NCBI GenBank assembly: GCA_900708905.1
Contig: CAADRB010000016.1
Coordinates: 693,614-757,613 of the forward strand
Source: Hymenolepis diminuta
Lineage: Eukaryota > Platyhelminthes > Cestoda > Cyclophyllidea > Hymenolepididae
DNA length: 64,000 nt
Direction of reading: 5' to 3'
Both the position numbers and the translations under genes were made by a program. Shown one piece after another: positions 1,946-55,931 of the stretch. Every line of letters begins with the position of its first letter. The stretch's first letter is position 1. The notes below the pieces were generated by a model that had not been told where the DNA came from, did no database searches, and saw only the letters and a program-made list of their open reading frames with translations.

Positions 1946-2934
1946 GAAGATAAAAAGGGCTACAAGAGGCGATATTAATCCATTCGAAAGACATCATAAG
2001 TTATGTCTTTGGACCCATCTAAATAAATGAAAAACAAATTAAATCTATTAACAAACTGAAACTGATTCTAGGTTTTCCACATACGCGTATATACAAAATG
2101 TCATTCTATTCAGCTGAGGAGAAACTGCAAAGCAGGAGAATTTGTTAATAACTATATTTGGCACTCATGTCTTTTTTGAAATGTCTGCCTCTTATCTCAG
2201 TCCATTTTATTTAGATGGTTTCAGTAACCCGGAGGCTTATGTTATCCTTGAAAAAAATCTGATCCGTCATTATATCTTCCTAACGAAAAAGCATATCAGA
2301 TTTCGTAAATGAGATGACTGATAATGGTTGACGTGGTGTGAAAGACCTTCCATTCTTCCTGGGTGGCATTGCTTTTACGGAAAGGTCGGTGGTATCAGCA
2401 GAAATTAGGCACAAATGACTCAGAGGAGTCAGGAGCCCTGTTATACAGATAGGAGGATATGGGAGTGGAAACCGGGAAATTTGTCTCTCCCATCAGTTGA
2501 CAAATTGCACATCCAGTATACAGATTAAACGACCGAGGAAAATTTAAACGGGAGTCTCTTTTACTAAAGTGTTTAGAAGCATTTTCCCCTTATAGGGGTC
2601 TTGCGACATGTGTATTGATAACCGTTAAATTAAATTTATCTTTTTATTCTAGTTTTCTGCCTACTACAAGCTTGGATACATGTCTTTCTACCTATGACTT
2701 ATTGCTCTTCCTTTGCTTTTCTTATCGATTTTGTTCCAATTATCTTATCTCGCATATTCAGCTTTACTCCAGTCGATCTAGCCACTTTTTCAAATTTTAC
2801 CCTACAGGTGGTACGGCATCTTTATTCTCTTCTAAAACCAGAGTTTCTGCTTTCTTCCCATTGCAGGACGCGTAGTCTAAATTATTTTTATTAAGGAAAT
2901 CATATAAGGCAGGTTAAAATGGAAGTGTATAATG

Positions 2935-3015
2935 GTGGGCAAAAAAGTATAAGGTGAGAGGAAGTGATCATCTTGCCACAATGGCCACTATCTTCTACCA
3001 CAGCAAGAGACATTA
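2935..3015 (+). repeat. dispersed repeat R2, copy 1
   Basis: Carries the core gtgatcatcttgccacaatgg followed by ccact. Copies of this core and its purine-rich left flank recur in both orientations at about 9400-9520, 21350-21470, 21890-21970 and 62450-62540. The flanks are also partly similar, so the full unit is longer than the core. No coding potential; class unknown. Confidence 0.55.
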
Positions 3016-32959: not shown

Positions 32960-33700
32960 AAATAAATATAATATTAACATAGGTTTTATTCTGTACATCC
33001 TCCTTCGGCTTCTATCACCGACTCAATTTGAATTCGAAAATGACTGCAAACTTTCATCAGTGGTTTTTATTGATGTTCTCCATTGCTCGAGATATTGCTT
33101 TCATCAGAAAGGAGGATTTGGTGTTATGGGGATGCTCATTAACTTCCTTTTCAACCACGCCCAGCCCCACACACAGTAATCCTTTGGATTACTGGGTCTG
33201 GTGAGTAGTTAAGGGGGCAGACATGAGCTTGGTGTGACATGACGATGAAAATTCTCGGCTATCCATCTAACCGTGGGATTTGAGAGTTTCACGGGATAGA
33301 GCCGAATCTTGTTGGGAGACATAGGGGAGTCCTCCTCCATTAGCTACGCCGTCTATCCAAGGTGGCATAGCAATGATTTGAAGAGTCTCTATATAGGCAT
33401 CCGCATCAACTATAAGGTCCTTTGGAAAAAACTGAGGAGTCATGATGTGCCCCTCCTTTACTGCTAATAACACCGAAAAACATCGCTGTTGGTGGAAATA
33501 CTTCGTGTGCATGCACAACAGTTGGAATTTCGGTGGGGTCTACCCACTCGCACATAGCCACGTATACTGGATTGACTTTTTCGTCCTAGTTGAAATGTTT
33601 TTTTTCCGCCAGAGAAAAACAAAGAACACCTCTGTTCTCCTGGATATTTCAATTTGTTTAAGAGTCATTTTGCACGTATTAGACGATTTTCATTAGTTAT
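32960..33700 (-). mobile_element. Tc1/mariner-superfamily transposase relic
   Basis: Minus-strand, frameshifted transposase. From N- to C-terminal: a DEKVNPVYVAMCEW stretch with the DEK signature near 33570, then an open segment at 33518-33267 (KEGHIMTPQFFPKDLIVDAD, AYIETLQIIAMPPWIDGVA, YVSQQDSALSRETLK). The last part carries the QQDSA form of the second catalytic Asp motif. Around 33110-32985 it ends with AISRAMENINKNH and, after a frame break, an IESVIEAEGG tail. Stop codons and frameshifts separate the parts, so it is inactive. No terminal inverted repeats were identified. It ends 0.65 kb before the left arm of the large inverted repeat. Confidence 0.75.
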
Positions 33701-34719
33701 TTTCGTCGAAATTATCTGACGGCCTTGCCTAAGGACGCAACATTTGTATCCGAGGTCTTGATGTAGAACAATCCTTACGTATTGTTCCTTCAGGCGCTTG
33801 AAGATATTTGACAAGATTTCACTCATGCGCTGTCCTCAAAAACTCAGGTGTTCTGAATGTGTCATCAGAGTATTGACAGAGCTGTTTTCTCCTACTCCTG
33901 GTGGCAAATACATCTCCACTGTTTTCATTCAGCTCCATTCTAACTTTGCAAACGAAAGATTTAGTGAATTTTAGAAATCTTGCAATTCTGAAATTGTCAT
34001 GTTTCGCTTTTATTCACACAATTAAAGTTATAACACATCTTTTCATATCGTCAGCATAGTAGCATCTGGCATGAGATCTTCTGATGTAAAAATACGTTAG
34101 TTTAAAATTAAAAAATACACATGTAATCATATACTTTGTACGCGCTGTATATATTGTATAGGCACCATTATACGTATATATATGCTTAGTACCAAAGCAA
34201 TCTGAAAATTAAAGCAAAAAATCAGTCAATTTTACAATTCTGCACGCATCAAATTAGAGTATTATCATCTTTTAACATTTATGAAATTTGCAAAAGAGGT
34301 CCAACGTTAACAGAATAACATGTATAAACATAATTTTCATTAAAACGGTCTTGAAGAGTGAACTTCGCATATGAATAATTTTCCCGAGAATTCAAGCCAT
34401 GAAAATTTTGTCGTCAATAATTGGCACTTTGCATTTCTTTACCAATATTTTCATCGTAGGAAAGGTGATAAAAATCTTTTCATCTTCTTTTTTAAAATCA
34501 TTTAAAGCATCTTAAAAAAGTTTGAATTTATATCTTTTTATTCAGCTTTTATATATCTGTTCGAATTGGGGATGACTTCCGTATTGATAGGTCTAATTTC
34601 AAATTGCGTTTGTAATTTTAAAAAATTCTGGAACAGTTCGATAACTAACATTTTTATTGTCAGTTGAAATTACCTTGCTTGTCGACGTGGTAATGAAAAA
34701 TTACTTAATATTTAAAAAA

Positions 34720-36900
34720 AATGATAGCAAAAATGTCTCCGAAAAAAGATAAACTTGAACAAATCGTACAAAACTGCTAGAAAATTTCGTGAAACAGATG
34801 GAATATAGAGAAATTATGACGCAACAATATGAGGAAATCTTCTTGAAACCAATGGAACAATTTACGAAGAATCCGAACCTGAATCCTGAGCACTCAGATA
34901 AATCCATCCCTAACAACTTTGTTTTACAGATCAATGAAGTTAACCATGGTCCAGAGGTGGACCTTGCTTTTGATAACTGGTTTGATAAACGCAAGGATGT
35001 GTTCAGAAAAGATCTGGCTGACATCCCCGAGGAGAAAAGATTTGGACTCCTTCTTCGGCGATTGGTGACTGCGGAACACAAGAAGCTAAAAAGCTACGTT
35101 CATCCATGTTTAGACGAGTTTATCGATTCTCCTTTTTTTCTATAACCATCCTGTTTCATTTAAAAGTGTACCTGTACTCATAGCCTCACGCACGTCCTTG
35201 CCTTAGTGATTCATATAAATTGCGTTTATTTCCACTCACATGCACAAACGCAGACACACGCTGCTCGTACATTCTCCTTTCATCTCCTCTATTTCTCTCT
35301 CGAGTCCTCATCTTCGTCTATTCAACACACTTCGACCTACGCAACACTGTGTGTTCTAATTTTTGGAACTGTTGTTTGTTAACTTTCACAACACAGAGAG
35401 GCGAAATGCCGGATCGATACGAAGGATAATTTAAAGAAAAAGAGGACTGCTGGAAAACCTACTGGATCTTTCAATTCTCACAGTGTTGTCAGTTCAGCCT
35501 ACGAAGACATAAGTTCTAATAGGTGACAGTATTCAACCTTGATAATTATTGATCTTTCACCTCAAGAAAAACATGGAGAACCAGTGCTGAAACCGATAGA
35601 CCATATGGTTCGAAACGCTTCTGGTGATTCCTTGAAACTGGAAGGTGAACTTGACTGTCAAGTTTGTTATGATGATCAGAAAATTACTGCAAAATGCTTC
35701 GTAAAAAGCAATCTGATTTGGATCTTCTGAATTCTGATTGGTTAAACCAATCGAAGCTGCTGAAACAGATCATCCACTTCCTTGCCGAAAAATCACCTGC
35801 TATTCGGGTGGAAGAATCAAAAGTCAGCTCGAAGTAGGTGAGAAATCGGAGTGAAATTCACAGGAAGAATTCCAGCGAAGCCGTTAATAAAACATGCATG
35901 AGAAGCGAATCCGATACAGAAGTGAGTGAAGATGAAGTGAATATAATCAAACAATTTCCTTCAGTTTTCAGAGACAAATAGCGTCTAAGAATGGATAAAG
36001 ACAGAACTGCTTGTCAAAGTGCTGCTAGAAGCCCTTAACGCGAAAGAACGATGCCTTGGTCCCCAGCAAAGACACTATGGAGTAGAATGCATGTGGATTT
36101 TGCTGGTCTCATTAATGACATCGTCTACTTAGTCTTGGTGGACTTGCATTCCAAGTGGCCGGGAGTAATATCAATACCATCAACGCTTACTGCAACGATT
36201 ATCAGCGCATCTTCATGGCACACGGCTTCCCATAAATTCCGACATCAGACCGTGGAAAATGATTTTGTTTGTCGCAACACGATGAATACTGCAAACAAGA
36301 AACGGTTGATTGCATCCATACGTCCCCATATCAGCCAAGATCAAATGGCCAAACAGAATGATTTGTCGACACGTTCAAATGGGCCCTGTTAAAAGCAAAA
36401 GGGGAGGGAGTGACGTAGAAAGCTATTCGAAAGTTCCAACTGCCCTAGAGGACGCTTCCTCATCCGATACTCGGTGGTAAATCATATGCAGGACTATAAT
36501 TGAGATGAGCAGTTCGAACCATCAACCATGCTATGATGTCGTAGTAGAGGCGTGTTCACTGTCAATGATCTCGTGCTTGCTTATGATTTCCGAATTGGTT
36601 ATTCCTTCATGACAATAAGTATGGCTGGGAAAGGTCACTTAATGAAATTCAAGTAAATGACGCTAGTTGAATCAGGCATAGAAATCAATCGAGGATAAGT
36701 ACTGTGGGAAGTAAATAAATGCCGGCATCAACCCCACTTTACCACACCTTGGACACTATTAGACTTACAGCAAGTGAATCCGATAAAACCAGAGAAAGAA
36801 CTCCAGATTCTCCGCTCAAAAAGGACACTTCAGATGAGATCGCATTTGAAATAATACTAGGAAGAAATATGTTGTGGAAGGGGAGGTGTCAAGAAGGAAT
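34720..36900 (+). mobile_element. internally deleted Ty3/gypsy retrotransposon, left-arm copy
   Basis: Decayed element in the plus orientation. A gag-like frame lies at 34789-35145 (FDNWFDKRKDVFRKDLADIP, RFGLLLRRLVTAEHKKLKSY), with a short upstream start at 34732 in another frame. A protease C-terminal piece lies at 35539-35727 (SLKLEGELDCQVCYDDQKIT). The integrase zinc-finger end and core are at about 36000-36392 (MHVDFAGLINDIVYLVLVD, HSKWPGVISIPS), and the integrase tail near 36560-36710 (FTVNDLVLAYDFR, IRHRNQSR). The first catalytic Asp is kept, but the second motif is lost (NDFVCRNTM). Reverse transcriptase and RNase H are absent: the sequence passes from about 35990 straight to the integrase finger. 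A purine tract gaaggggagg followed by TGT at 36887 suggests the 3' LTR start. Confidence 0.75.
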
Positions 36901-38080
36901 TTAAAGTATTCAAATAATTAAATGCTTTTTTGTTATATTATGATATTTCATGATATTATAATTTATTTTATATTTCCTTCCTTTCCATATTGAACACAAC
37001 GTTTAATTATAAAGTTTTTTGCCTGAACTAATGAATAACCTTGACCATGGAATAATTTTCGCATTCAAAATTCTAAGATCTTTCAAATTTGTCTCCTCGA
37101 CTCCTCTCTCGACAGCTATTTTTGCTGGATATTTTGGGATTGTTTGCCGAAATTACACTAATGCAGCTGTGTCAAATTAGCGGTCATGAGGGCATTGGAT
37201 TCTTATAAAACGGTGTATATTTTATGGTCGATGGTGATGGTTGCCTGCCAATGCGTCCGCGTGAAGTATGTAGCTGACCACTTAAATGGGTGTCAGATTT
37301 AAGCGAAGCTGTTATTCATAAATTATTGTTCATAAATCAAAATTTTTTCAGTTGCAATTCGAAAGAGGCAGTTTTAATTAGTGTTATTACATTAAATTAT
37401 TAAAGATGGTTGTCGTGTAATTAGATACATTTCCTGGATGTTTATACATTTGAAAAATGTTAAATAATATTATTATAATTAAGATTAGAAGTATAAAATC
37501 CTCGAATTTGGTGTGAACTCTGGTACAAATAATAATTTCAATTACTGAAATGATCGAATACGTGTATTTGTCAAATGAAATGAAACCAAGTTTCTACTTT
37601 TTCACAATCGTCTCATTTAAACCTATTTAATCAATGAATTAATAGTAATACAATATTATTAAACAGAATGCTTAAATAACTCGAACATATATGATAATGA
37701 CAAGATATTGTAAAATTTTGTTTGAATTATGGACAGGATATGCCATAATTAAGCAGCAGCACTGTAAATCATCGTCATACATCACTGGGAGTAAGGATTC
37801 AATTTGTTCCGATACAATGGTGTTTTTCGCACACCGTGTAGGGCCACACAGGTTTCCTTGAAGCTACGTAGAAGTTGATACGAAAGCGTGGCCTGCGCTT
37901 TTATTTACTGGGGTATCACAGGGAAAGCCTTATATAAAAAAATGGGGTTTTTCATGCATGCCCAACTCCAAATCACGCTCATTTGAAGAAAATAGATATT
38001 CTCCAATTTTTGGTAAACCGAGGAGTACATGTTATAAGAGCCATCTACTATCAGAATGCAAACAGTTGAATTATCTTAAT
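36900..38080. other. AT-rich stretch in left arm, no gene seen
   Basis: About 1.2 kb of AT-rich sequence following the inferred 3' LTR start of the gypsy remnant; part of it may be LTR. No open frame of interest. It mirrors 51869-53049 in the right arm. Confidence 0.4.
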
Positions 38081-38639
38081 AGTGAAGGCCTGTCCTGAAC
38101 CCAACTCTCCATCAAGCAGAATAATAATTTTGGCAAACGTATTTCAGGAAAGTTTTTTTAATTTGCGGCAGTTAAGTGTAAGTAGGTTTCGAGTTGTGAG
38201 TGCGAGAATGGTATTGCAATCTTATCGTTTTCACTCGCCGGGTATTGATTGGGATCTACAGTTCATGCAGTTAAAAACTACACCAGCTCAGTTAGTTTTA
38301 TCCACCTTACGATGGCATTTTGTAGGCTAAAGCAAAGCACATCTGTTAAAGCTGGTCGTTTCAACAAAGTGCTTGAAAACTTTGCCGCCAAACAGGGCAC
38401 ATTAGTTCAAGCAGACTTATCCTCCCCGGAACTTCTTAATCGCATATCAATTCAAATACGTAACCAAAAGTTATAGACTATGCCAGCATTGCCTAATTTC
38501 AAATTACCAGGACCAATATTTTTAAATTGTAATTGAGCTTAACTAAGCGATAGTACAAATTTCTCAAGCCATGGAGTTGTAGTGACAAAGTTTATTGAAC
38601 TTTTACCAAATTAAGGATTTCCTCTCGGTCCTCCCACAT

Positions 38640-38760
38640 CAACTAATTCAGTGACATGGGCTAACTTCGAACCCGGCCACAATGATATTGCTCTTCTGGC
38701 GATGATAAAATCTGTCCAACAGTCAAATACATATATATACCTCCCCCGTGTGCCTACACA
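38640..38760 (-). repeat. tRNA-like box B motif, possible SINE or tRNA pseudogene (left arm)
   Basis: On the minus strand there is ggccgggttcgaagttagcc, a good match to the polymerase III box B consensus, with no convincing box A at tRNA spacing and no cloverleaf I can fold by hand. It is probably a tRNA-derived relic. The mirror copy is at 51189-51309 on the plus strand. Confidence 0.3.
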
Positions 38761-38860
38761 CCTGAGGGATGACTCTTCATGTATTTCCGGAATCACTCTT
38801 TATTCCCATTCCCCATGACAATACCTCGGTTTTTCGTCCACGTAGTCGCAGTGACGTCTT

Positions 38861-38861
38861 N
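38861..38861. other. ambiguous base (n) in left arm
   Basis: Single unresolved base in gtcttnttggt. Its mirror partner at 51088 (accaanaagac) is also n; 38861 + 51088 = 89949, the symmetry constant of the inverted repeat. Confidence 1.
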
Positions 38862-39780
38862 TTGGTGTTATTAGCTGTTAGCTGCCAACCTTTAGTTGTT
38901 ATCTTAACTCCAACACACCAGCCCACTACCCACATCTTTGCATACGCGAACGTCAATCTATCCGCCAGACCTGGGAAATTCCTTGCTTATTCAATAAAGC
39001 TCCCTAATTCCAATTTATATCTATTCCTGGTGTGTGGTGAGGATGAAAAGAATTTAGAAGAGTGACATCTCTTCAGCTAGGAACCTGGAGAGTGCACTAT
39101 TACAATACTTTGGCGTGCACAGAAGTATTACTCCTGTATTTCGGTCGAAAAAAGTTTATTCTCCGTATTTTCTATCATGCCCCATGGTTGTATCTTTCAC
39201 AAAGATGCCCGCTAAATTACACAAATGCCATACTGCGTGCCTTCCTAGATATTATCAATTTTATGCAGCTCCCTCATAGTGCTCGAGATCATCACATTAA
39301 TTTGTTAATGCAGATATGGATTCTCAAATGAGAGAAGGTCCTCAAAAATTAGAAGAACATGATTACCCCTTAATATGCTCCTTACTCACCACAAGTCAAA
39401 CCTGTCAATCATTGTACCCGCTGATGATTCCAACTATGGCGTTAGTGCGCTTATCACTCGTCTTCTCAGATGGTTTAGAGAAAGCTCTTGCTCATGTTTC
39501 TCAAACCTTCACTACGATTGAGAAAACTGGTCTAACTAAATACACAGGGAATTAAATAAGCATTTTAAGAAAATCATTCAATTTTTTCTTCTTCCAAGTA
39601 GAAACACGGTAGGGTAGAGGGGACAGTAAGTGAGAAAAAGGGTGAGGAAATAAGGGAGTGCAAGCATGTAGAGAATGGGGGGGGGGAGGGAGTGCTGTAT
39701 TGTTACAGGAATTCATTACACAAAGAAGGAATTTCCAGACTCCCACCCTTAATGAAACATCACAGCAAACACTCAAACAC

Positions 39781-42700
39781 TTAGACTGTAGAAGTAGGTG
39801 GTCTAACACCCTTTACAATTTTCGATCTCGACCCCACCAAGCCCCGTCTATCATAGCTCGATTTTCTCGAAGCCCGACGTCGTTTGCCACTTCCAGTGCC
39901 CTCAACTATCAAGCGATTCACCGGTTTCTTCACCTTGTAAATACGTACAATCCAATGCTCGGAAGTAAAAGCCTCTTCCAAGTGAGTTAATTGAATATTC
40001 TTTACACCAATTTCAGAGTTGCGAGCCCTGTCAAATCCTGCTGGCATCCGAGGATCGATTGCCGCCTCCGCAAATCGATAATAGCTCATTTTGTACATCA
40101 GAGAGTTCACCATTGCTGGGGGCGCCATATGATCTATTCTGTATTCACCCTAAAGGGGGAAACAAGATCAAATTAAGATTTATTTAGGGTTTCACGTGAA
40201 AGTAACAAACAGCTCCACCTACTTGGGCTGTGTAATAGTCCTGTTCATGGATGTCTTTCGGATGTTCTCCTTGTGCAATCCTTACCATCCACAGGAATTT
40301 ATTAATATCATCCCCAGAATAACCGCTCATTCCACCGAAAATAATGAGAACGTAATCCACATCTAGTGATTGCATCAACTAAAGTAAGCACATTTTACTT
40401 ATTTTTTACCATTAGGTGAGGTGGATATAAATTTTTTAAAGGTAACTTACTCGAAAAGCGACAGTTTCATTCGAGGACATAGCTTTACCAACCAAGGCGA
40501 TATGACTATTATTCCAGGTGTTGTTATCGACTAGGGTTGTTCGATTAGCCATCCCAGCAATCTGATAGCCATAATCCCACCATGACATCACTTTGGCATC
40601 TTCTGGAGTATTCTGCCATAGCCAGTAATAGGCCTCACCGAAATCATCCAGCAGTATACGTTCTCCACGCGATCCAGAATATGCAAGCACAACCGAGGGG
40701 CTTGAGTAAGCATTTGATGTGACCCAGGTGCAATGGAACATAAAGAGGAAGAGCACAAAGGTCGCTACCATGACAACGACCTTGCGAACGCTTATTCCCA
40801 AAAAGTCATCACCTCTACTGCTTTCAGCGTCAGATTCGGATTTTCCCTTCTTCTGTTTTCCACCTTCAGATGACTTGGACGGTTTGTCATAAAGTTGCTT
40901 CTCACGTGAAGTTGACCGCTTCTTTTTGGCCTCCTCTTCATTCTCTTCTCCGATTAAAGCGTCTTCACGCAAGTAAACATCGTAAAGACGGGAGAAGGCA
41001 ATAGCGGCCAGAACACAGACAATGGGGGCCAGGGTGAGAATAAGACGCACCATAACGCCAGCAAAGTAGGAAGCGAAAATGGCATAGAGTATGGCGAAGA
41101 CGCGCAGATCGTTCAGTTCGGAGAAACAGAACCACACGCCAGCGGGAAAGACAGTAACAAGGATATGAAGGTCAAAGAAAAAGGAAGTCCAGGTGGTTGG
41201 CTGATGTTCTGACACGGAGCTAATAATTGGAATGTGAACTCGAGCGTAACCAGTATCCCAGAGGGAGTAGAATCTGCAAAGTCATAAGGGTATATTAAAA
41301 TTTGATGCGTTGTTTCAAAATCAACAATAAATTTAAAATGTGAGCACTAACGGTTCTCAATATTGTGACTTCTCATTTGACATATTCCCCCAATATGTGA
41401 AACTTTCAAATACCAGCTCATGGTATAGTCCTATTCTCTGCAAACTGAAGTGATATTTAGATCTATCTTAATATGATCTGGGCAAACTCAGCTTAATTTC
41501 GGTGACCGAGATTAAATCTTAATTTGACAACACTTAGCCAAAATTCCCCCCCCCCCCTCCCCCATCATCCCCAGGATTTAGGTATCCAGTTTATTCAATA
41601 TGAAGAAAAGTATACATCAACAAAGCACCCGTGAATAAACGCTTCTAATTTTATCACTCTTGGTCTTCATTCGCTTATTTCACCAGATTAGCTACCATCT
41701 AAAATAGCCCCTTAAGCCCCCTATCCTAGCCTTTATGGCATGTTGTCCATTATGGTATGAACCAATGAAACACTGCATTTTCAATAGTTTCCATTTAAAG
41801 CCGCTTTTGTGTAAATTAAGGGGAGAACTAAACTTACCGACCGCTCCACGGCGCAATAACACCGGCCGCTGTTAAACCACAGACAGCAAGGAAGACCAGA
41901 CCGGCTATAACAACGATACCCATCGTGAAAAGGGAACGGAATTTGTTGGAGGGCACCAAAGTTTGAAGATATTGGAAGAATGCCACGGCCTGTGAAATAA
42001 CAACAGAAGTTGACGTGAATATTGCTACTACTGAAATCATTTCGGTAGAAGAAAAACAAAAATTACCATCTCAGCTATTACTTTTAACATCCTACCCTCC
42101 AAACCCATTCAAGAAGGCGTTTTCAGTATTAATTCTAGATGAGAAAGTAGCATCGTGGGGCCGTTCTGATTAAAACATCGAATTCTGTCTGAGAAAAGCC
42201 AGACCTAATCGATTATTAATTCTGCTCATTCTGAGTGTGCACCGATGGGCATCGTACGCGTGACCTCAAAGATTTATTCTCCCTCATCACGCTACTATTC
42301 TTCAACGAACTTCTGGAACTAAGCTGTAGAGCATCTTTAACTACACAAAATTACTGCACACCATGGTCTTATAGTGTTTAATTATCTTTCCTTGTAGATT
42401 AAACAAAGAAAGTTTAACATTTAGCCGTCGTCTAAGCCATAATAAAGAAAAGAACACGAATTCCCTTCAGAATGCTCCTGAGGTAAACTCCAACTACGAT
42501 CCTTCATAATCAAAAGACTAGATGTCTGGCATTTTGATACACATGTTAAATAATCACTTTTAACTCTCAAATCCATTTAAGAAAGTATTTTCCAATACTC
42601 AACTTTTGGAGAGGAATAATATCGCGGCGCCTGTCTCTTGGGAAACTCGAATTCTCCAAGCCTCCTTTCCCCTTTAATAGCCAGACTTGACTAGTGCTCG

Positions 42701-45700
42701 TGGCTTCGAAAACATAACCTCGGACCTCATAAAGGAGCCTAATAAGCCCTACGCCAAAAACGCAAAATGATTAAGTGAAATTACGGATTATATAAGAATA
42801 AAAATTACCTGTAGAAGTACAAACACACCAGCTGCGGCCATGTGTTCACTTGTGCGAACTGGCTGAAATCCAACAAAGGGTACTTGCATGGAGAGAATGA
42901 GTCCCAGGATGTAGAAACTCGTGTAGGCAACATAGAGACGCGAGGAGTAACGACCTGTTAGACAGAGCACGAAGGCATGTAGGGGCACAAGGTTGATTAT
43001 GAAAACATAGCCACCCCAAGCTGAGACCATGTAGAGATAGGCCAGAGCACATAGCACTGACCATAGAAGATGACCTGTACGGACTGCGCGTAACCAGAGG
43101 AAGTAGGTGAGGAGAAGAGCGAAGATAGCGATTCCTTCGTTGTCATAGCTACCAGCGACTGACCGACTGATGTATCCGGGAACTAAATGTACAAAAAACA
43201 TAATGATATCAATTAAAAGGAACCTTTGAATAAAAGAAGCATTACATTCAGCCAACCATATAACCTAACTGATAAGAAGCGAAATCGAATATTTTCCGTA
43301 CTCTAAACAGAACTCATACTCATCTTGGGTGGAGTAACTTCGTGAAGTCTCCCTGACGATAAAGCCGAATTTTGTAATACTCTTAATTAGCAGTATTAAA
43401 CCAGTGCGGTTAGCTATTCCGCCTGCTGGGTGTGCACAGACAGATAGAGAAGCCGTAATCTCGGACTTCGCAGACGAGTAGGTTTACCGCCAGGTGTCCT
43501 TCGCACTCCTCTGAGTTTATTTATTTAATTTCTTTTATTCAGTCCATTTTATCAGGAGGTGGTACCACTGGCGCAGACAGAGGTTTCCTAAATGGGGAGG
43601 GCTGAATGAAAACTTGGTAAATAGAAAGCAACTCCAATAAGATCAGTTTGTAACAGAAGTTCCGTCCATTTTTTCAATTTGAATTATAGTGGAAATTTTG
43701 TCAAATATACATTTATTTAGTCTTCAACATAGTCAACATTATTATTAATTACATTTTCTCATCTTGCCATAAGGTTCCTGGCTCCTTCTTCATAGAATTT
43801 AGCCTGTTTGGACTCATAAAAAGAAACTAGCTTCTTCACTTCGACCTCTTCTCTTGAAGTAAACCTTTGTTCCATTCACTGATTCTGTAAGCTACTGAAA
43901 AGATGAAAATCAGTTGCTGCAAGATGGGGAGAATATGGCGGGTAATGCATTACTTCCCAGCCAAATTCCTCAACGACATTTTTGGTTACTCTTGAAGTGT
44001 GGGGTCTGGCATTGTCATGGTGCAGAATCACTTCTTTTCGATTCATCACAGAAGGCCGTTTTCCCTGCCGTTAACTGCTTTTAAACGNCTTGACTTAGCC
44101 ACTGTCTTTTGCGCTTAACATTGTTGTGAAGGACCCACTCCTCGTCGCTATCAGTTATGATTCGGTCTAAAAATGGTGCCTGAAGTTCAATTCACGAGAA
44201 CGCAGTGAAACAACAGGTCACACACTGTTGCTTGTTCATTTCTGACAAATCGTGTGGGGGACCCATTTCCCATCCTTTGAGACTTTGCCAAGTCTTTTTA
44301 TTTCCCTATATGTGGTCATATGGCTTATGTTAAGGGTTTTGCTCAGTTCTCTAGTAGTGCAGGTTGGATTTTCATCAATGCCAACTTGCAATTGCTCAGA
44401 ATTGAGTTTTTTCTGAGCATCCTGCTCCCAGTTTGTCCCTCAGTCTCAAGTGGTCCTTTTTGAAACCACCTGCAGAAAACCACCTTCTGCAGGACTTTTC
44501 ATTCACAACCTCATTTTCATAAGTGTCTGAGTGTTTTTGCTGCTGAGCTTGACGTATTTCCTTTATGAAATTCAAACAGTAAAGTATGCCCGATATGCTC
44601 TTTATTTGGGGTGTACATTAGGGCTAGAAGGAGTTATTAATAACGGTAATTATCACACAATCTGAAAGAAGAAACAATGTTTTATTAATTACCATAGATA
44701 AGCAAGCTAAATCGTGCCCTAAACAAAGAGCTCAAAAATTGGGCAAAACGTCTCCTACAACCTGATATTATGGTTGCATTTCTTCGATAATACTAAGAAC
44801 GCGTAGGAAGAGACGTCGTATCAAAAGAACTAAAAGTACTAATATAGTAGGCTAGCGCATAAGAGGTGTCATCCCAAGAACAACTGCTTTTTTTTCGCTC
44901 TAAATATGACAAAATTAATAAATTTTTATTATTCTTCTGTTCTTGGCACTGTAAGAAATTATAAATTAATCAAAGTGCCATAACCAAGCGCTTGATCAGA
45001 TAAACCGGTTAATAAGCTCGAAGCACTGAAAAGATGAACACAACTATCAAACTGGAGGTCAAATGATGCAATATGAACTCGGAAATATTAGGTTTTGACA
45101 CCGTGACCTACCTTATTTCAATTCTTCATTTAACTTCTACTTTAAGAATTTGTAAAAGANNNNNNNNNNNNNNNNNNNNNNNNNNNNNNNNNNNNNNNNN
45201 NNNNNNNNNNNNNNNNNNNNNNNNNNNNNNNNNNNNNNNNNNNNNNNNNNNNNNNNNNNNNNNNNNNNNNNNNNNNNNNNNNNNNNNNNNNNNNNNNNNN
45301 NNNNNNNNNNNNNNNNNNNNNNNNNNNNNNNNNNNNNNNNNNNNNNNNNNNNNNNNNNNNNNNNNNNNNNNNNNNNNNNNNNNNNNNNNNNNNNNNNNNN
45401 NNNNNNNNNNNNNNNNNNNNNNNNNNNNNNNNNNNNNNNNNNNNNNNNNNNNNNNNNNNNNNNNNNNNNNNNNNNNNNNNNNNNNNNNNNNNNNNNNNNN
45501 NNNNNNNNNNNNNNNNNNNNNNNNNNNNNNNNNNNTTAACGTTCTGACAAAGACCTTCAAGGCTTATTTTAGATTACTGTACAGTGACAGAGTGAAGGTT
45601 TTAAAGATTTACTTATACTTACATTTTCCCTTAACAGGGCCTCGAATATTCACGGAAGATTTGAAGTTAGCAAAAGTAGAACACTTTATGGAAAAAAATA

Positions 45701-46887
45701 AAAATGGAAAGAAATTAACCAATTTACATATTCAGTTCCTCTGCATCTTACCTTTTTGAACAGTGCAGTCACACATTTTAACGTCAACATAACGGTGCAC
45801 ATTAGCAAATAGATAACGAATTTATTGTATCAAATAAGGAAATACACCCTCTTGTAAATTCAAATAGTAGACGTACAATGTAGAACTAAATAGACTATGA
45901 CAAAATTACGAAAACTAAAACATAGCTACTTCAACTGGTTAAAGGAATACAGAGATTATAGAAATATATAAATAACAAACAATTTTGTACAGAATAAAGT
46001 TATAAAAATCATTAATTCGAGTAATAAAATTTGCGTAAGAATAATAATGGGAGAATTAAAGTTCTACCACTTCAGACTTTATGAAAAAATACTCAAAGAT
46101 AAAGTCAGGATTAGAAATTAAACAGAAATGACGAAAAACACATTAATAGGGAGACTAGTTTAGCACTGAAAAATGATTTAGAAAACATTCAAAGAAACGC
46201 AAATGCAAGTTCTAAAAAATGTTTATCAAATGCGAATCCGTAACGATTTTAGACTAGCAGCATTTGAAACATGCTGCATTAGATTAAGAAGTTCAGATAC
46301 AGGTAATCGAACTGCAAAATAGACAAAAATTTAAAAAAGGTTAAAGAAATAAGAAACTTGCCTATTGCCAAGAAACAGGCTGCAAATAGGCCGGCACGAT
46401 CATTCCAGAGTTCTTTGGTTAAGAGATATCCCATGATAGCAGTCAAACCACTGAATATGGGTGCCAAAAATACACAAACTTCACGAATATGTATTGGAAA
46501 ATTGAGCAATCGCAGAATGTAATGAATCGAACCTGAAATTACGGGGAAAAAGTGTGTGAAGATGATAGATGCATATTCAAACTGCAAAAAGCAGAAATAC
46601 TTACCAGAAGTAATCATAAGTCCTGGATAAACAGTTCCACCAACAATTCGTCCGAGGGGATACCACGCAGTCACATCAAACCAGTTAAGAAAATCGTAGA
46701 AGCTGTTATCGACCATTTGTTTGGTTGCCCGATAGTTGAACCATGGGTCAAATTCATGGATGATGCTCTCAAATCGAATGACGGAAAAAAGTCGGGAGAA
46801 GAATCCTACTATCCATGCTAATGCAAGAATGCCAATGGTAAGGAGGCCTTTGCTGCTTTTAGCATTTAACATAAAGCCAGACTTCAT
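39781..46887 (-). CDS. STT3B: oligosaccharyltransferase catalytic subunit STT3 (STT3B-like)
   Basis: Catalytic subunit that transfers the lipid-linked glycan to Asn-X-Ser/Thr in the ER lumen; a multi-pass membrane protein. Seven minus-strand exons: 46887-46605, 46532-46362, 43182-42809, 41989-41838, 41273-40451, 40378-40223, 40149-39781. Phases agree throughout (2328 bp, 775 aa). Key motifs: [10 protein letters not shown] with the metal-binding Asp at residue ~47, [15 protein letters not shown] at ~558-562, DNNTWNNSH, and [12 protein letters not shown] (DK-type motif). The charged linker containing LYDK and a basic C-terminus favour STT3B over STT3A. Intron 2 uses a GC donor and contains a mariner relic and the assembly gap. 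Exons 1-3 lie in the spacer and exons 4-7 in the left arm. In-frame residues exist upstream of the chosen ATG, so the start is the least certain point. Confidence 0.93.
42080..42270 (-). repeat. SINE copy at inner edge of left arm
   Basis: On the minus strand it has gaggtcacgcgtacgatgcc, catcggtgcacactcagaat, gagcagaatt, and the body gacagaattcgatg and cgccttcttgaatgggttt, matching the SINE at 24.1 kb. It lies in STT3 intron 3, about 110 bp from the arm boundary. Confidence 0.6.
42560..42735 (-). repeat. SINE copy in STT3 intron 3 (spacer)
   Basis: On the minus strand: atgaggtccgaggttatg, ccacgagcactagtcaagtc, gagaattcgagtttcccaag, gttgagtattggaaaat and actttcttaaatgg, in the same order as the family. 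It is a second, more diverged copy 0.3 kb from the one at the arm edge. Confidence 0.55.
43310..43500 (-). repeat. SINE copy in STT3 intron 2
   Basis: On the minus strand: gaagtccgagattacggctt, gtgtgcacacccagcaggcg, gaatagctaaccgcactgg, aattcggctttatcgtcagg, gagacttcacgaag and cacccaagatgagtat. A good match to the SINE body, with a decayed box B. Confidence 0.55.
43690..44580 (-). mobile_element. mariner-family transposase relic in STT3 intron 2
   Basis: Minus-strand reading in broken frames. An N-terminal helix-turn-helix part lies near 44420-44260 ([20 protein letters not shown], then [15 protein letters not shown]). The central part near 44160-44090 reads [20 protein letters not shown]. 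The C-terminal part near 44045-43760 reads [38 protein letters not shown] and [20 protein letters not shown]. The HHDNARPH motif holds the second catalytic Asp, and the first is visible as the Asp of DSDEEW. Frame breaks, an n at 44088 and no identified terminal repeats mark it as a dead copy. It is a different lineage from the relic at 33 kb (HHDNARPH against QQDSA). Confidence 0.85.
45160..45535. other. assembly gap (376 N)
   Basis: Run of N between the two arms of the inverted repeat, inside STT3 intron 2. The joining of the left-arm contig and the STT3 5' exons to the right-arm contig depends on whatever spans this gap. Apparent open frames crossing it are meaningless. Confidence 1.
45536..46270. 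other. STT3 intron 2, AT-rich, nothing recognised
   Basis: Sequence between the gap and STT3 exon 2. No coding signal or repeat recognised. Confidence 0.4.
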
Positions 46888-47565
46888 TCGGATGGCGATA
46901 AAATCTTTACGCAGAGAAAACGCACACCACAGGGCGACAAATGTCTGATCATGATTGGCTATTTGATTGAACACTTAAGAGAAACATCTCCATGACCAAT
47001 TTTAATAAAAAATTCAAAATTAATCATTTTAAATGCATCATCTACAGTTATAGAGGTAATTCCACCATAGATATCTAAGTAAAAGAATCGTGATATGTTT
47101 TGCATTCTCATATTTTTAAAAAATAAATTGGTACTTATTTACTAATTACTAATTCAAGCTGTTTGCAATAACTGAGGAAGTGTATTAAGCTATTTAAAAA
47201 TTTATTCAATGTCTTGGTTACTGAAAGAATTCAACATACTCCTCCTTTACCAATAACCTAATTGATTTAAACGAAATGTGCTTGTCAAAATTAAAAACGA
47301 CAAAGAAGCACAGTACTCCTCATTACCTAGAAAACTTTGATTTTATAGGTAATAAACTCGAAAAATAGTGGTCTCCGTTATGTTTACAGTAATTAAAAAC
47401 ATTTAAGTATATGAAATTACAAAATGAAGTGATTCGAAAACTTATAAATGTAATAAAGCATTTAAAACCAGAAATTACAAAATATCACAAGATGATAGCA
47501 TCAGCAGACTATCTGAGAAAAACTAAAAATACTGGAAATTAAATTTCATACTGTTAAAGTGAGAA
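46888..47565. other. upstream region of STT3, AT-rich
   Basis: About 680 bp between the STT3 start and the inner edge of the right arm. It should contain the STT3 promoter. It is very AT-rich, with no motif I would name. A weak AG acceptor (gcgtaaag) lies 20 nt upstream of the chosen ATG on the minus strand. Confidence 0.35.
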
Positions 47566-47678
47566 AATTAAACACTATAAGGCCATGGTGTGCAGTAATT
47601 TTGTGTAGTTAAAGATGCTCTACAGCTTAGTTCCAGAAGTTCGTTGAAGAATAGTAGCGTGATGAGGGAGAATAAATC

Positions 47679-47869
47679 TTTGAGGTCACGCGTACGATGC
47701 CCATCGGTGCACACTCAGAATGAGCAGAATTAATAATCGATTAGGTCTGGCTTTTCTCAGACAGAATTCGATGTTTTAATCAGAACGGCCCCACGATGCT
47801 ACTTTCTCATCTAGAATTAATACTGAAAACGCCTTCTTGAATGGGTTTGGAGGGTAGGATGTTAAAAGT
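47679..47869 (+). repeat. SINE copy at inner edge of right arm
   Basis: Mirror of the SINE at 42080-42270, identical by inspection. Confidence 0.6.
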
Positions 47870-47959
47870 AATAGCTGAGATGGTAATTTTTGTTTTTCTT
47901 CTACCGAAATGATTTCAGTAGTAGCAATATTCACGTCAACTTCTGTTGTTATTTCACAG

Positions 47960-50168
47960 GCCGTGGCATTCTTCCAATATCTTCAAACTTTGGTGCCCTC
48001 CAACAAATTCCGTTCCCTTTTCACGATGGGTATCGTTGTTATAGCCGGTCTGGTCTTCCTTGCTGTCTGTGGTTTAACAGCGGCCGGTGTTATTGCGCCG
48101 TGGAGCGGTCGGTAAGTTTAGTTCTCCCCTTAATTTACACAAAAGCGGCTTTAAATGGAAACTATTGAAAATGCAGTGTTTCATTGGTTCATACCATAAT
48201 GGACAACATGCCATAAAGGCTAGGATAGGGGGCTTAAGGGGCTATTTTAGATGGTAGCTAATCTGGTGAAATAAGCGAATGAAGACCAAGAGTGATAAAA
48301 TTAGAAGCGTTTATTCACGGGTGCTTTGTTGATGTATACTTTTCTTCATATTGAATAAACTGGATACCTAAATCCTGGGGATGATGGGGGAGGGGGGGGG
48401 GGGAATTTTGGCTAAGTGTTGTCAAATTAAGATTTAATCTCGGTCACCGAAATTAAGCTGAGTTTGCCCAGATCATATTAAGATAGATCTAAATATCACT
48501 TCAGTTTGCAGAGAATAGGACTATACCATGAGCTGGTATTTGAAAGTTTCACATATTGGGGGAATATGTCAAATGAGAAGTCACAATATTGAGAACCGTT
48601 AGTGCTCACATTTTAAATTTATTGTTGATTTTGAAACAACGCATCAAATTTTAATATACCCTTATGACTTTGCAGATTCTACTCCCTCTGGGATACTGGT
48701 TACGCTCGAGTTCACATTCCAATTATTAGCTCCGTGTCAGAACATCAGCCAACCACCTGGACTTCCTTTTTCTTTGACCTTCATATCCTTGTTACTGTCT
48801 TTCCCGCTGGCGTGTGGTTCTGTTTCTCCGAACTGAACGATCTGCGCGTCTTCGCCATACTCTATGCCATTTTCGCTTCCTACTTTGCTGGCGTTATGGT
48901 GCGTCTTATTCTCACCCTGGCCCCCATTGTCTGTGTTCTGGCCGCTATTGCCTTCTCCCGTCTTTACGATGTTTACTTGCGTGAAGACGCTTTAATCGGA
49001 GAAGAGAATGAAGAGGAGGCCAAAAAGAAGCGGTCAACTTCACGTGAGAAGCAACTTTATGACAAACCGTCCAAGTCATCTGAAGGTGGAAAACAGAAGA
49101 AGGGAAAATCCGAATCTGACGCTGAAAGCAGTAGAGGTGATGACTTTTTGGGAATAAGCGTTCGCAAGGTCGTTGTCATGGTAGCGACCTTTGTGCTCTT
49201 CCTCTTTATGTTCCATTGCACCTGGGTCACATCAAATGCTTACTCAAGCCCCTCGGTTGTGCTTGCATATTCTGGATCGCGTGGAGAACGTATACTGCTG
49301 GATGATTTCGGTGAGGCCTATTACTGGCTATGGCAGAATACTCCAGAAGATGCCAAAGTGATGTCATGGTGGGATTATGGCTATCAGATTGCTGGGATGG
49401 CTAATCGAACAACCCTAGTCGATAACAACACCTGGAATAATAGTCATATCGCCTTGGTTGGTAAAGCTATGTCCTCGAATGAAACTGTCGCTTTTCGAGT
49501 AAGTTACCTTTAAAAAATTTATATCCACCTCACCTAATGGTAAAAAATAAGTAAAATGTGCTTACTTTAGTTGATGCAATCACTAGATGTGGATTACGTT
49601 CTCATTATTTTCGGTGGAATGAGCGGTTATTCTGGGGATGATATTAATAAATTCCTGTGGATGGTAAGGATTGCACAAGGAGAACATCCGAAAGACATCC
49701 ATGAACAGGACTATTACACAGCCCAAGTAGGTGGAGCTGTTTGTTACTTTCACGTGAAACCCTAAATAAATCTTAATTTGATCTTGTTTCCCCCTTTAGG
49801 GTGAATACAGAATAGATCATATGGCGCCCCCAGCAATGGTGAACTCTCTGATGTACAAAATGAGCTATTATCGATTTGCGGAGGCGGCAATCGATCCTCG
49901 GATGCCAGCAGGATTTGACAGGGCTCGCAACTCTGAAATTGGTGTAAAGAATATTCAATTAACTCACTTGGAAGAGGCTTTTACTTCCGAGCATTGGATT
50001 GTACGTATTTACAAGGTGAAGAAACCGGTGAATCGCTTGATAGTTGAGGGCACTGGAAGTGGCAAACGACGTCGGGCTTCGAGAAAATCGAGCTATGATA
50101 GACGGGGCTTGGTGGGGTCGAGATCGAAAATTGTAAAGGGTGTTAGACCACCTACTTCTACAGTCTAA
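47960..50168 (+). pseudogene. truncated inverted duplicate of STT3 (exons 4-7 only)
   Basis: Mirror copy of STT3 exons 4-7 at 47960-48111, 48676-49498, 49571-49726 and 49800-50168, with identical sequence and intact splice sites. Together they would encode the last 499 residues in an open frame, including WWDYG, but exons 1-3, with the first luminal loop and its essential Asp, are absent. The repeat boundary falls in intron 3, and the sequence upstream on this strand is unrelated spacer and the gap. If the arm is real this is a promoterless, non-functional partial copy. If the arm is an assembly duplication it does not exist. Confidence 0.8.
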
Positions 50169-50393
50169 GTGTTTGAGTGTTTGCTGTGATGTTTCATTAA
50201 GGGTGGGAGTCTGGAAATTCCTTCTTTGTGTAATGAATTCCTGTAACAATACAGCACTCCCTCCCCCCCCCCATTCTCTACATGCTTGCACTCCCTTATT
50301 TCCTCACCCTTTTTCTCACTTACTGTCCCCTCTACCCTACCGTGTTTCTACTTGGAAGAAGAAAAAATTGAATGATTTTCTTAAAATGCTTAT

Positions 50394-51867
50394 TTAATTC
50401 CCTGTGTATTTAGTTAGACCAGTTTTCTCAATCGTAGTGAAGGTTTGAGAAACATGAGCAAGAGCTTTCTCTAAACCATCTGAGAAGACGAGTGATAAGC
50501 GCACTAACGCCATAGTTGGAATCATCAGCGGGTACAATGATTGACAGGTTTGACTTGTGGTGAGTAAGGAGCATATTAAGGGGTAATCATGTTCTTCTAA
50601 TTTTTGAGGACCTTCTCTCATTTGAGAATCCATATCTGCATTAACAAATTAATGTGATGATCTCGAGCACTATGAGGGAGCTGCATAAAATTGATAATAT
50701 CTAGGAAGGCACGCAGTATGGCATTTGTGTAATTTAGCGGGCATCTTTGTGAAAGATACAACCATGGGGCATGATAGAAAATACGGAGAATAAACTTTTT
50801 TCGACCGAAATACAGGAGTAATACTTCTGTGCACGCCAAAGTATTGTAATAGTGCACTCTCCAGGTTCCTAGCTGAAGAGATGTCACTCTTCTAAATTCT
50901 TTTCATCCTCACCACACACCAGGAATAGATATAAATTGGAATTAGGGAGCTTTATTGAATAAGCAAGGAATTTCCCAGGTCTGGCGGATAGATTGACGTT
51001 CGCGTATGCAAAGATGTGGGTAGTGGGCTGGTGTGTTGGAGTTAAGATAACAACTAAAGGTTGGCAGCTAACAGCTAATAACACCAANAAGACGTCACTG
51101 CGACTACGTGGACGAAAAACCGAGGTATTGTCATGGGGAATGGGAATAAAGAGTGATTCCGGAAATACATGAAGAGTCATCCCTCAGGTGTGTAGGCACA
51201 CGGGGGAGGTATATATATGTATTTGACTGTTGGACAGATTTTATCATCGCCAGAAGAGCAATATCATTGTGGCCGGGTTCGAAGTTAGCCCATGTCACTG
51301 AATTAGTTGATGTGGGAGGACCGAGAGGAAATCCTTAATTTGGTAAAAGTTCAATAAACTTTGTCACTACAACTCCATGGCTTGAGAAATTTGTACTATC
51401 GCTTAGTTAAGCTCAATTACAATTTAAAAATATTGGTCCTGGTAATTTGAAATTAGGCAATGCTGGCATAGTCTATAACTTTTGGTTACGTATTTGAATT
51501 GATATGCGATTAAGAAGTTCCGGGGAGGATAAGTCTGCTTGAACTAATGTGCCCTGTTTGGCGGCAAAGTTTTCAAGCACTTTGTTGAAACGACCAGCTT
51601 TAACAGATGTGCTTTGCTTTAGCCTACAAAATGCCATCGTAAGGTGGATAAAACTAACTGAGCTGGTGTAGTTTTTAACTGCATGAACTGTAGATCCCAA
51701 TCAATACCCGGCGAGTGAAAACGATAAGATTGCAATACCATTCTCGCACTCACAACTCGAAACCTACTTACACTTAACTGCCGCAAATTAAAAAAACTTT
51801 CCTGAAATACGTTTGCCAAAATTATTATTCTGCTTGATGGAGAGTTGGGTTCAGGACAGGCCTTCAC
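50394..51867 (-). other. candidate coding region of unknown function, right arm
   Basis: Exact mirror of the candidate region at 38082-39555, reading on the minus strand and converging on the truncated STT3 copy. It gives no independent evidence, because its sequence is identical to the left-arm copy. Confidence 0.3.
51088..51088. other. ambiguous base (n) in right arm
   Basis: Mirror of the n at 38861. Two independently sequenced repeat arms would not be expected to share an uncalled base, so the arms probably derive from the same consensus or read set. Confidence 1.
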
Positions 51868-53048
51868 TATTAAGATAATTCAACTGTTTGCATTCTGATA
51901 GTAGATGGCTCTTATAACATGTACTCCTCGGTTTACCAAAAATTGGAGAATATCTATTTTCTTCAAATGAGCGTGATTTGGAGTTGGGCATGCATGAAAA
52001 ACCCCATTTTTTTATATAAGGCTTTCCCTGTGATACCCCAGTAAATAAAAGCGCAGGCCACGCTTTCGTATCAACTTCTACGTAGCTTCAAGGAAACCTG
52101 TGTGGCCCTACACGGTGTGCGAAAAACACCATTGTATCGGAACAAATTGAATCCTTACTCCCAGTGATGTATGACGATGATTTACAGTGCTGCTGCTTAA
52201 TTATGGCATATCCTGTCCATAATTCAAACAAAATTTTACAATATCTTGTCATTATCATATATGTTCGAGTTATTTAAGCATTCTGTTTAATAATATTGTA
52301 TTACTATTAATTCATTGATTAAATAGGTTTAAATGAGACGATTGTGAAAAAGTAGAAACTTGGTTTCATTTCATTTGACAAATACACGTATTCGATCATT
52401 TCAGTAATTGAAATTATTATTTGTACCAGAGTTCACACCAAATTCGAGGATTTTATACTTCTAATCTTAATTATAATAATATTATTTAACATTTTTCAAA
52501 TGTATAAACATCCAGGAAATGTATCTAATTACACGACAACCATCTTTAATAATTTAATGTAATAACACTAATTAAAACTGCCTCTTTCGAATTGCAACTG
52601 AAAAAATTTTGATTTATGAACAATAATTTATGAATAACAGCTTCGCTTAAATCTGACACCCATTTAAGTGGTCAGCTACATACTTCACGCGGACGCATTG
52701 GCAGGCAACCATCACCATCGACCATAAAATATACACCGTTTTATAAGAATCCAATGCCCTCATGACCGCTAATTTGACACAGCTGCATTAGTGTAATTTC
52801 GGCAAACAATCCCAAAATATCCAGCAAAAATAGCTGTCGAGAGAGGAGTCGAGGAGACAAATTTGAAAGATCTTAGAATTTTGAATGCGAAAATTATTCC
52901 ATGGTCAAGGTTATTCATTAGTTCAGGCAAAAAACTTTATAATTAAACGTTGTGTTCAATATGGAAAGGAAGGAAATATAAAATAAATTATAATATCATG
53001 AAATATCATAATATAACAAAAAAGCATTTAATTATTTGAATACTTTAA

Positions 53049-55229
53049 ATTCCTTCTTGACACCTCCCCTTCCACAACATATTTCTTCCTAGTATTATTT
53101 CAAATGCGATCTCATCTGAAGTGTCCTTTTTGAGCGGAGAATCTGGAGTTCTTTCTCTGGTTTTATCGGATTCACTTGCTGTAAGTCTAATAGTGTCCAA
53201 GGTGTGGTAAAGTGGGGTTGATGCCGGCATTTATTTACTTCCCACAGTACTTATCCTCGATTGATTTCTATGCCTGATTCAACTAGCGTCATTTACTTGA
53301 ATTTCATTAAGTGACCTTTCCCAGCCATACTTATTGTCATGAAGGAATAACCAATTCGGAAATCATAAGCAAGCACGAGATCATTGACAGTGAACACGCC
53401 TCTACTACGACATCATAGCATGGTTGATGGTTCGAACTGCTCATCTCAATTATAGTCCTGCATATGATTTACCACCGAGTATCGGATGAGGAAGCGTCCT
53501 CTAGGGCAGTTGGAACTTTCGAATAGCTTTCTACGTCACTCCCTCCCCTTTTGCTTTTAACAGGGCCCATTTGAACGTGTCGACAAATCATTCTGTTTGG
53601 CCATTTGATCTTGGCTGATATGGGGACGTATGGATGCAATCAACCGTTTCTTGTTTGCAGTATTCATCGTGTTGCGACAAACAAAATCATTTTCCACGGT
53701 CTGATGTCGGAATTTATGGGAAGCCGTGTGCCATGAAGATGCGCTGATAATCGTTGCAGTAAGCGTTGATGGTATTGATATTACTCCCGGCCACTTGGAA
53801 TGCAAGTCCACCAAGACTAAGTAGACGATGTCATTAATGAGACCAGCAAAATCCACATGCATTCTACTCCATAGTGTCTTTGCTGGGGACCAAGGCATCG
53901 TTCTTTCGCGTTAAGGGCTTCTAGCAGCACTTTGACAAGCAGTTCTGTCTTTATCCATTCTTAGACGCTATTTGTCTCTGAAAACTGAAGGAAATTGTTT
54001 GATTATATTCACTTCATCTTCACTCACTTCTGTATCGGATTCGCTTCTCATGCATGTTTTATTAACGGCTTCGCTGGAATTCTTCCTGTGAATTTCACTC
54101 CGATTTCTCACCTACTTCGAGCTGACTTTTGATTCTTCCACCCGAATAGCAGGTGATTTTTCGGCAAGGAAGTGGATGATCTGTTTCAGCAGCTTCGATT
54201 GGTTTAACCAATCAGAATTCAGAAGATCCAAATCAGATTGCTTTTTACGAAGCATTTTGCAGTAATTTTCTGATCATCATAACAAACTTGACAGTCAAGT
54301 TCACCTTCCAGTTTCAAGGAATCACCAGAAGCGTTTCGAACCATATGGTCTATCGGTTTCAGCACTGGTTCTCCATGTTTTTCTTGAGGTGAAAGATCAA
54401 TAATTATCAAGGTTGAATACTGTCACCTATTAGAACTTATGTCTTCGTAGGCTGAACTGACAACACTGTGAGAATTGAAAGATCCAGTAGGTTTTCCAGC
54501 AGTCCTCTTTTTCTTTAAATTATCCTTCGTATCGATCCGGCATTTCGCCTCTCTGTGTTGTGAAAGTTAACAAACAACAGTTCCAAAAATTAGAACACAC
54601 AGTGTTGCGTAGGTCGAAGTGTGTTGAATAGACGAAGATGAGGACTCGAGAGAGAAATAGAGGAGATGAAAGGAGAATGTACGAGCAGCGTGTGTCTGCG
54701 TTTGTGCATGTGAGTGGAAATAAACGCAATTTATATGAATCACTAAGGCAAGGACGTGCGTGAGGCTATGAGTACAGGTACACTTTTAAATGAAACAGGA
54801 TGGTTATAGAAAAAAAGGAGAATCGATAAACTCGTCTAAACATGGATGAACGTAGCTTTTTAGCTTCTTGTGTTCCGCAGTCACCAATCGCCGAAGAAGG
54901 AGTCCAAATCTTTTCTCCTCGGGGATGTCAGCCAGATCTTTTCTGAACACATCCTTGCGTTTATCAAACCAGTTATCAAAAGCAAGGTCCACCTCTGGAC
55001 CATGGTTAACTTCATTGATCTGTAAAACAAAGTTGTTAGGGATGGATTTATCTGAGTGCTCAGGATTCAGGTTCGGATTCTTCGTAAATTGTTCCATTGG
55101 TTTCAAGAAGATTTCCTCATATTGTTGCGTCATAATTTCTCTATATTCCATCTGTTTCACGAAATTTTCTAGCAGTTTTGTACGATTTGTTCAAGTTTAT
55201 CTTTTTTCGGAGACATTTTTGCTATCATT
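53049..55229 (-). mobile_element. internally deleted Ty3/gypsy retrotransposon, right-arm copy
   Basis: Exact mirror of the left-arm element: gag-like frame at 55160-54804, protease piece at 54410-54219, integrase core at 53898-53557, and purine tract plus LTR start near 53062. It has the same stops and frameshifts as the left copy, so the decay predates the duplication or the two copies are one sequence. Confidence 0.75.
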
Positions 55230-55931
55230 TTTTTTAAATATTAAGTAATTTTTCATTACCACGTCGACAAGCAAGGTAATTTCAACTGACAATAAAAATG
55301 TTAGTTATCGAACTGTTCCAGAATTTTTTAAAATTACAAACGCAATTTGAAATTAGACCTATCAATACGGAAGTCATCCCCAATTCGAACAGATATATAA
55401 AAGCTGAATAAAAAGATATAAATTCAAACTTTTTTAAGATGCTTTAAATGATTTTAAAAAAGAAGATGAAAAGATTTTTATCACCTTTCCTACGATGAAA
55501 ATATTGGTAAAGAAATGCAAAGTGCCAATTATTGACGACAAAATTTTCATGGCTTGAATTCTCGGGAAAATTATTCATATGCGAAGTTCACTTTTCAAGA
55601 CCGGTTTAGTGAAAACAATATATATGGCAACCCTATTGACTTATTCTCAGATCATTGCTTTCACTACATCAATAAGTGCATGACGAGTATGAACACCCAT
55701 TTACACACCTGGGTGCGAACCCCCCTTATACACGCTTTCTGACATCGTTTTCAATTCCGAAATTCCCCACTTTGCCTTTCTTTCCTTTTCAAAAATACGA
55801 GATATGCAAAACATATATAATTCCAATGTTGACACGCAAAATATAAGTACATAATTGTTAGTGATAAAAGGAAGGAATTTTCAAGATACAGAGTAAATTT
55901 ACAAAAAGTGACAGTGCACAATGGCACAACT

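Follow-up and report, generated by a model that had tools for sequence, protein, structure and literature searches.

A mirrored 8 kb arm pair at the STT3B locus of Hymenolepis diminuta: probably a real inverted duplication, collapsed in assembly and written twice

Introduction

The window analyzed here (the whole 64,000-nucleotide stretch of Hymenolepis diminuta DNA) contains two arms of about 8 kb that repeat each other in opposite orientation, down to an N at mirrored places. This raises the question of whether the animal carries both arms or whether a single sequence was set down twice in the course of assembly. In short-read assemblies, a collapsed repeat is one unitig used in several paths. 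We propose that the 3' half of STT3B and its surroundings are truly present at this locus in two copies of opposite orientation, which the short-read assembler merged into a single sequence that was then written out twice; we put the probability of this reading at roughly two in three. Among the matches listed for a literature search on Hymenolepis diminuta and inverted repeats, none is about this structure.

The window probably belongs to the assembly WMSil1; the H. diminuta dynactin-4 record matches it exon by exon, with no difference outside the splice edges. According to the genome paper (PMC6890685), WMSil1 was built from Illumina paired-end and mate-pair reads (mate-pair library of 5-10 kb) with ABySS and dnaasm, and linked by nanopore reads via LINKS and dnaasm-link; the same paper gives a heterozygosity below 0.05%, an 11% error for the corrected nanopore reads and a growth of the contig total from 162.78 to 167.66 Mb (+4.9 Mb) once the first mate-pair set was added. 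The published description of dnaasm-link has it use each contig once, insert a single N between contigs judged to overlap and, optionally, fill gaps with long-read sequence (PMC6487145).

Two Arms Under One Mirror Rule

The arms and the sequence between them are laid out as follows:

34357..42366, plus strand: left arm, exact core; 8010 bp, the reverse complement of 47583-55592 without a mismatch
47583..55592, minus strand: right arm, exact core; 8010 bp
42388..47561, unstranded: spacer between the arms, with STT3B 5' exons, a mariner-like element and a 376-N gap
45160..45535, unstranded: the 376-N gap in the spacer
34656..37160, unstranded: remnants of degraded retroelement-like sequence in the arm; 34759-35145 matches DUF7083; related sequence at 66-84% in other parts of the genome

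As reverse complements, the cores agree at every base, their positions obeying the rule p + q = 89949. The collinear arms without net indel that the earlier note had described under this rule are accordingly exact over 8010 bp, and the extent it gave (34349-55600, about 8035 bp per arm) is correct to within tens of bases. The 10- and 12-base homopolymers it reported as common to both arms are indeed mirrored as G10/C12 runs (39677-39686 with 50263-50272; 41546-41557 with 48392-48403), and an N stands at both 38861 and 51088, where it had placed them. A repeat search delimits the arms at 8064 nt (34324-42387 and 47562-55625) with a rounded 100% identity, and BLAST aligns 8054 bp of the arms gap-free with 5 mismatches; all 5 lie outside the exact core, with 3 in the outer 23 bp and 2 in the inner 21 bp. 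The duplicated unit measures about 8.05 kb and the spacer about 5.2 kb, and all four arm-to-unique junctions are free of N. Since the arms represent one consensus, the identity of their cores is no measure of age or of the true divergence between them; the contention that it is not evidence for a recent duplication is upheld.

When the 170.6 Mb genome was searched with arm DNA (40000-41000), two full matches were recovered, both within the window, along with three partial ones at 70-76%. The query 34320-38800 likewise gave two full matches, both within the window, and retroelement-like relatives at 66-84% (best 40 of 991 candidates). In the left flank, 33357-34102 is an interspersed transposon-like repeat, to which at least 30 other places in the genome are related at 68-75%; further out, 29101-30199 holds exons, which we take to be bystin-like, with an in-frame stop between 29178 and 29182 that might be an intron, an error or real.

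Similarity Beyond the Exact Core

Just outside the core, at both ends, the arms are flanked by short rims that resemble each other:

34334..34356, plus strand: left outer rim; 20/23 bases equal to the right outer rim; chance 2.5e-9 at a fixed place
55593..55615, minus strand: right outer rim; partner of 34334..34356
42367..42387, plus strand: left inner rim; 19/21 bases equal to the right inner rim; within an STT3B intron; chance 1.5e-9 at a fixed place
47562..47582, minus strand: right inner rim; partner of 42367..42387

The rims reach extension scores of 14 and 15. As a control, we drew 400,000 random pairs of window places and kept the 293,378 whose first bases differ, as they do at the core edges; among these the score never exceeded 7. 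Beyond the rims, no further homology rises above that of shuffled sequence, whether gaps are allowed or not. The rims differ at 5 of 44 bases (11%, CI 4-25%), 2 of the 5 being the bases that end the core by definition and none an indel, as against 0 of 8010 in the core.

The inner rim pattern matches the two arms alone, with no further genome place at up to 3 mismatches, and the outer one recurs at 2 further places at 2 mismatches; neither rim is a high-copy repeat. These two look-alikes (C6:1136217-1136239 and C195:291729-291751) were found with a degenerate 23-base pattern whose reversed control gave none, and their likeness stops after 23-28 bp. At the left outer junction, none of the 45 listed matches (best 40 of 1175 candidates) spans the boundary except the window itself; at the right one, none of the 3 matches does so besides the window's own arms.

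Through the rims, the two sites are homologous outside the shared consensus as well. A pasted consensus has no reason to land between look-alike flanks on both sides, whereas related DNA does; hence, the rims favor related DNA. This bears on the two readings of the earlier note: the one it preferred, a single consensus placed twice, fails to predict the rims of 23 and 21 bp, whereas its alternative, a real repeat that was collapsed, fits better.

Single Ns as Probable Contig Joins

Three single Ns and the pieces of the broken repeat were located as follows:

38861..38861, unstranded: single N, left arm; taken for a contig join within an interspersed repeat
51088..51088, unstranded: single N, right arm; the mirrored join
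44088..44088, unstranded: single N, spacer; read as a contig join inside the mariner-like element
38760..38860, unstranded: first piece of the interspersed repeat that the N interrupts; matches C61:761062-761162 at 97%
38862..38915, unstranded: second piece of the repeat broken at 38861; the pieces are 274 bp apart in the closest copy

In 10/10 fetched copies of the interspersed repeat, the match to the left piece extends to 38860; the right piece was found again 253-368 bp further on in 8 of the 10 and was not found in the other two. The spacer element has a weak DDE_3 match, below the Pfam cut-off, and is presumably mariner-like; the one other copy of it with both sides has about 257 bp at the place of 44088, 50 of them N. 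In 264 kb of the scaffold, the only single Ns are these three, all within 38.8-51.1 kb, and the other eight N runs are 50 to 7469 long. The other fetched loci (76,656 bases, a few of the loci overlapping the 264 kb) have no single N and two longer runs. An exact end overlap of at least 8 bases was found at neither 38861 nor 44088.

We read the Ns at 38861 and 44088 as probable contig joins with a wrong gap estimate rather than uncallable bases. The "uncalled base" of the earlier note thus sits inside a broken interspersed repeat, in which 8 of 10 copies have 253-368 further bases. The single Ns were probably written by dnaasm-link: like its overlap placeholder (PMC6487145), those at 38861, 44088 and 51088 are, in our reading, one N between contigs. 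The difference is that the placeholder marks an overlap, whereas the repeat copies suggest that the sequence lacks about 250-370 bp at 38861 and, at 44088, about 257 bp; as no residual overlap is seen, the overlap estimate would have been wrong if these are such placeholders. If the same repeat broke both arms, each would be rejoined with an identical mark, so a shared N is what a collapsed repeat would lead one to expect and is no specific sign of copy-and-paste. The argument that independent copies would not share an N consequently fails, since each arm could gain its placeholder separately.

STT3B Across Spacer and Arm

The gene cut by the left inner boundary is STT3B, with the following exons:

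46605..46887, minus strand: STT3B exon 1a; start codon at 46887
46362..46532, minus strand: STT3B exon 1b; followed by a GC-AG intron
42809..43182, minus strand: STT3B exon 2; last exon in the spacer
41838..41989, minus strand: STT3B exon 3; left arm
40451..41273, minus strand: STT3B exon 4; left arm
40223..40378, minus strand: STT3B exon 5; left arm
39781..40149, minus strand: STT3B exon 6 with the stop; left arm
47960..50168, plus strand: STT3B exons 3-6 repeated as orphans in the right arm, with no 5' exons on this strand; mirror of the left arm, with ORFs

STT3B occupies 46887 to 39781 on the minus strand, with its first exons in the spacer and its last four in the left arm, the inner boundary of which falls in an intron. 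The frame is whole across this junction and gives 775 codons after removal of a 72-base in-frame intron, the length of the Rodentolepis nana record. The intron between exons 1b and 2 (46362/43182) starts with GC instead of GT and holds the mariner-like element and the 376-N gap. Among the matches listed, the closest proteins are those of Hymenolepis microstoma and Rodentolepis nana; no H. diminuta STT3B record was named for the arm variants among the best 120 of 6050 and of 6162 matches, in which a 90% cluster may hide one. Residues private to H. diminuta occupy 10/498 comparable sites in the arm part and 1/219 in the spacer part, a difference that is not significant (Fisher p = 0.19; p = 0.10 when set against the changes private to the two closest relatives); 3 of the 10 in the arm part fall where the seven other flatworm proteins in the comparison all have the same residue.

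Other Duplicates in the Assembly

The scan for further duplicates covered the 264 kb around the window whole and the remaining genome by short probes. The pairs on C63, C7 and C183/C89 were probed, and four of their ends were read to the base (C63 left, C63 right, C7 right and C183/C89 inner). In this non-random sample of few duplicates, found via the retroelement-like remnants of the arm, three of the four ends pass into similar sequence: C63 left (50/60), C7 right (17/25, chance 2e-5) and C183/C89 (15/20, chance 9e-6); C63 right (6/20) does not, and retroelements can have borders of similar sequence for reasons of their own.

One retroelement-like sequence lies, by equal scores, at the starts of C89 (211-1342) and C183 (211-1342), inside C183 (24599-25730) and reversed near the start of C122 (2336-3467); C89 and C183 agree in every probe over 2001-3677 and then differ. 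On C63, 1810843-1814285 recurs 28619 further on as a direct duplicate of about 3.4 kb, identical wherever it was probed, and shifts sharply at its left end into sequence of about 83% similarity. The transposon-like query from the left flank also returned equal-scoring pairs at C152 (519218-520283 and 542207-543259, with pieces offset by 13 bases) and between C168:552120-552808 and C138:955779-956467.

Weighing the Explanations

We advance the following mechanism for the preferred reading, a real inverted duplication that was collapsed and written twice. The H. diminuta genome would carry an inverted duplication of about 8.05 kb, comprising the STT3B 3' half and retroelement-rich downstream sequence, with arms flanking a 5.2 kb spacer that holds the 5' half. 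Judging from the general behavior of such programs, the de Bruijn assembler would have been unable to separate the arms and would have kept one sequence for both. Contigs would then have extended into the arm from four sides (left flank with X, Y with left spacer, right spacer with Y and X with right flank), with each arm broken at the same interspersed repeat. Finally, the long-read linker would have rejoined the pieces with a single N per presumed overlap, leaving Ns at mirrored places. Under this mechanism, a second copy of the arm probably exists in the animal.

This reading draws its support from: (i) the rims at both ends; (ii) the N as a probable join; (iii) the four N-free junctions, which were probably made before the linker added its Ns; (iv) the whole STT3B; (v) the ends of other duplicates. 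As dnaasm-link can fill gaps, a junction may lack an N without having been made early. Against it stands that the 5.2 kb spacing and the 8.0 kb arm are close to the mate-pair size of 5-10 kb in the genome paper (PMC6890685), such that a false inverted placement is possible. Further, the 11% difference of the rims equals the nanopore error rate given there, and gap filling by dnaasm-link may be their source; a point mildly against this is the lack of any indel among the 5 differences. Arms that were 11% different throughout would hardly collapse; the interior must thus be less diverged than the rims, and this calls for gene conversion or chance.

Gene conversion defines a sub-case of the preferred reading, which we regard as tentative and somewhat unlikely: an old inverted duplication truly kept near-identical by ectopic conversion, with the last 21-23 bp unconverted. 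The sharp change at both ends, from 5/44 in the rims to 0 of 8010 in the core, would accord with it, as would the private residues (10/498 against 1/219), as if a relaxed copy had fed changes in (p = 0.19, 0.10). However, the identity of the core is that of a single consensus and measures nothing, and a tract ending about 20 bp from both limits, if neat, is not required by the data. We further consider it quite improbable that such arms, kept alike by gene conversion, also recombine and thereby invert the spacer with no effect on the gene. With the STT3B 5' half in the spacer and a 3' half in matching orientation in each arm, STT3B stays intact either way; that a flip would yield a whole STT3B follows from the anatomy alone, and no evidence of flipping was found at the STT3B locus.

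A false second copy, in which the region occurs once (left flank, arm and spacer) and the right arm was misplaced, e.g., by wrongly oriented mate pairs, is in our estimate unlikely. In the true sequence, about 47.56 kb would then be followed by 55.62 kb, with or without a gap between them. A false copy would account for STT3B being whole through one arm only, with the right arm bearing orphan 3' exons, and for arms that are identical to the letter, the N of the join included. Equal-scoring duplicates also occur elsewhere, including at scaffold starts (C89, C183, C122), and the gain of 4.9 Mb with the first mate-pair set, as given in PMC6890685, suggests that some sequence may be written more than once. 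Yet, it leaves the rims at both ends unexplained and has to contend with right-arm junctions that lack an N; moreover, dnaasm-link as described uses each contig once, so that the linking step would not be expected to paste in a completed arm, N included. Rims at both ends would also be produced by a recent templated insertion with both junctions at pre-existing similar sequence of 20-odd bp, but unless the sites share ancestry, a pair of such matches at one target is very improbable (chances of 2.5e-9 and 1.5e-9 at fixed places), and the rim words are not high-copy repeats; we deem such an insertion exceedingly improbable.

Two other candidates were set aside. The heterozygosity below 0.05% in PMC6890685 counts against two haplotypes, and a haplotypic duplication was set aside on this ground; inside the core, the arms are without differences. 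A mobile element as the duplicated unit was rejected given a core that ends inside an STT3B intron, rim words that are not high-copy and two extra outer-rim matches that share 23-26 bp only.

Implications

Like the usual collapsed repeats of short-read assemblies, this locus has identical sequence in several places and contigs that break at repeated elements, whereas it differs from them in that the repeat is low-copy, inverted, only 5 kb apart and cuts through a gene. Inverted segmental duplications and palindromes can be maintained by gene conversion, e.g., those of the Y chromosome. The H. diminuta arms resemble these in their inverted arms, their spacer and possibly their unconverted edges; in contrast to them, the identity of the arms here is that of one consensus, and the right arm has only part of the gene.

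Two sequences can share an N without a consensus having been copied, since the placeholders of a linker can recur wherever the same element breaks a collapsed repeat. For dating duplications or counting STT3 genes in the H. diminuta assembly, an identity of 100% misleads. If the duplication is real, H. diminuta would have a glycosylation gene with two exchangeable 3' halves; if the spacer also flips, STT3B would exist as two interchangeable isomers.
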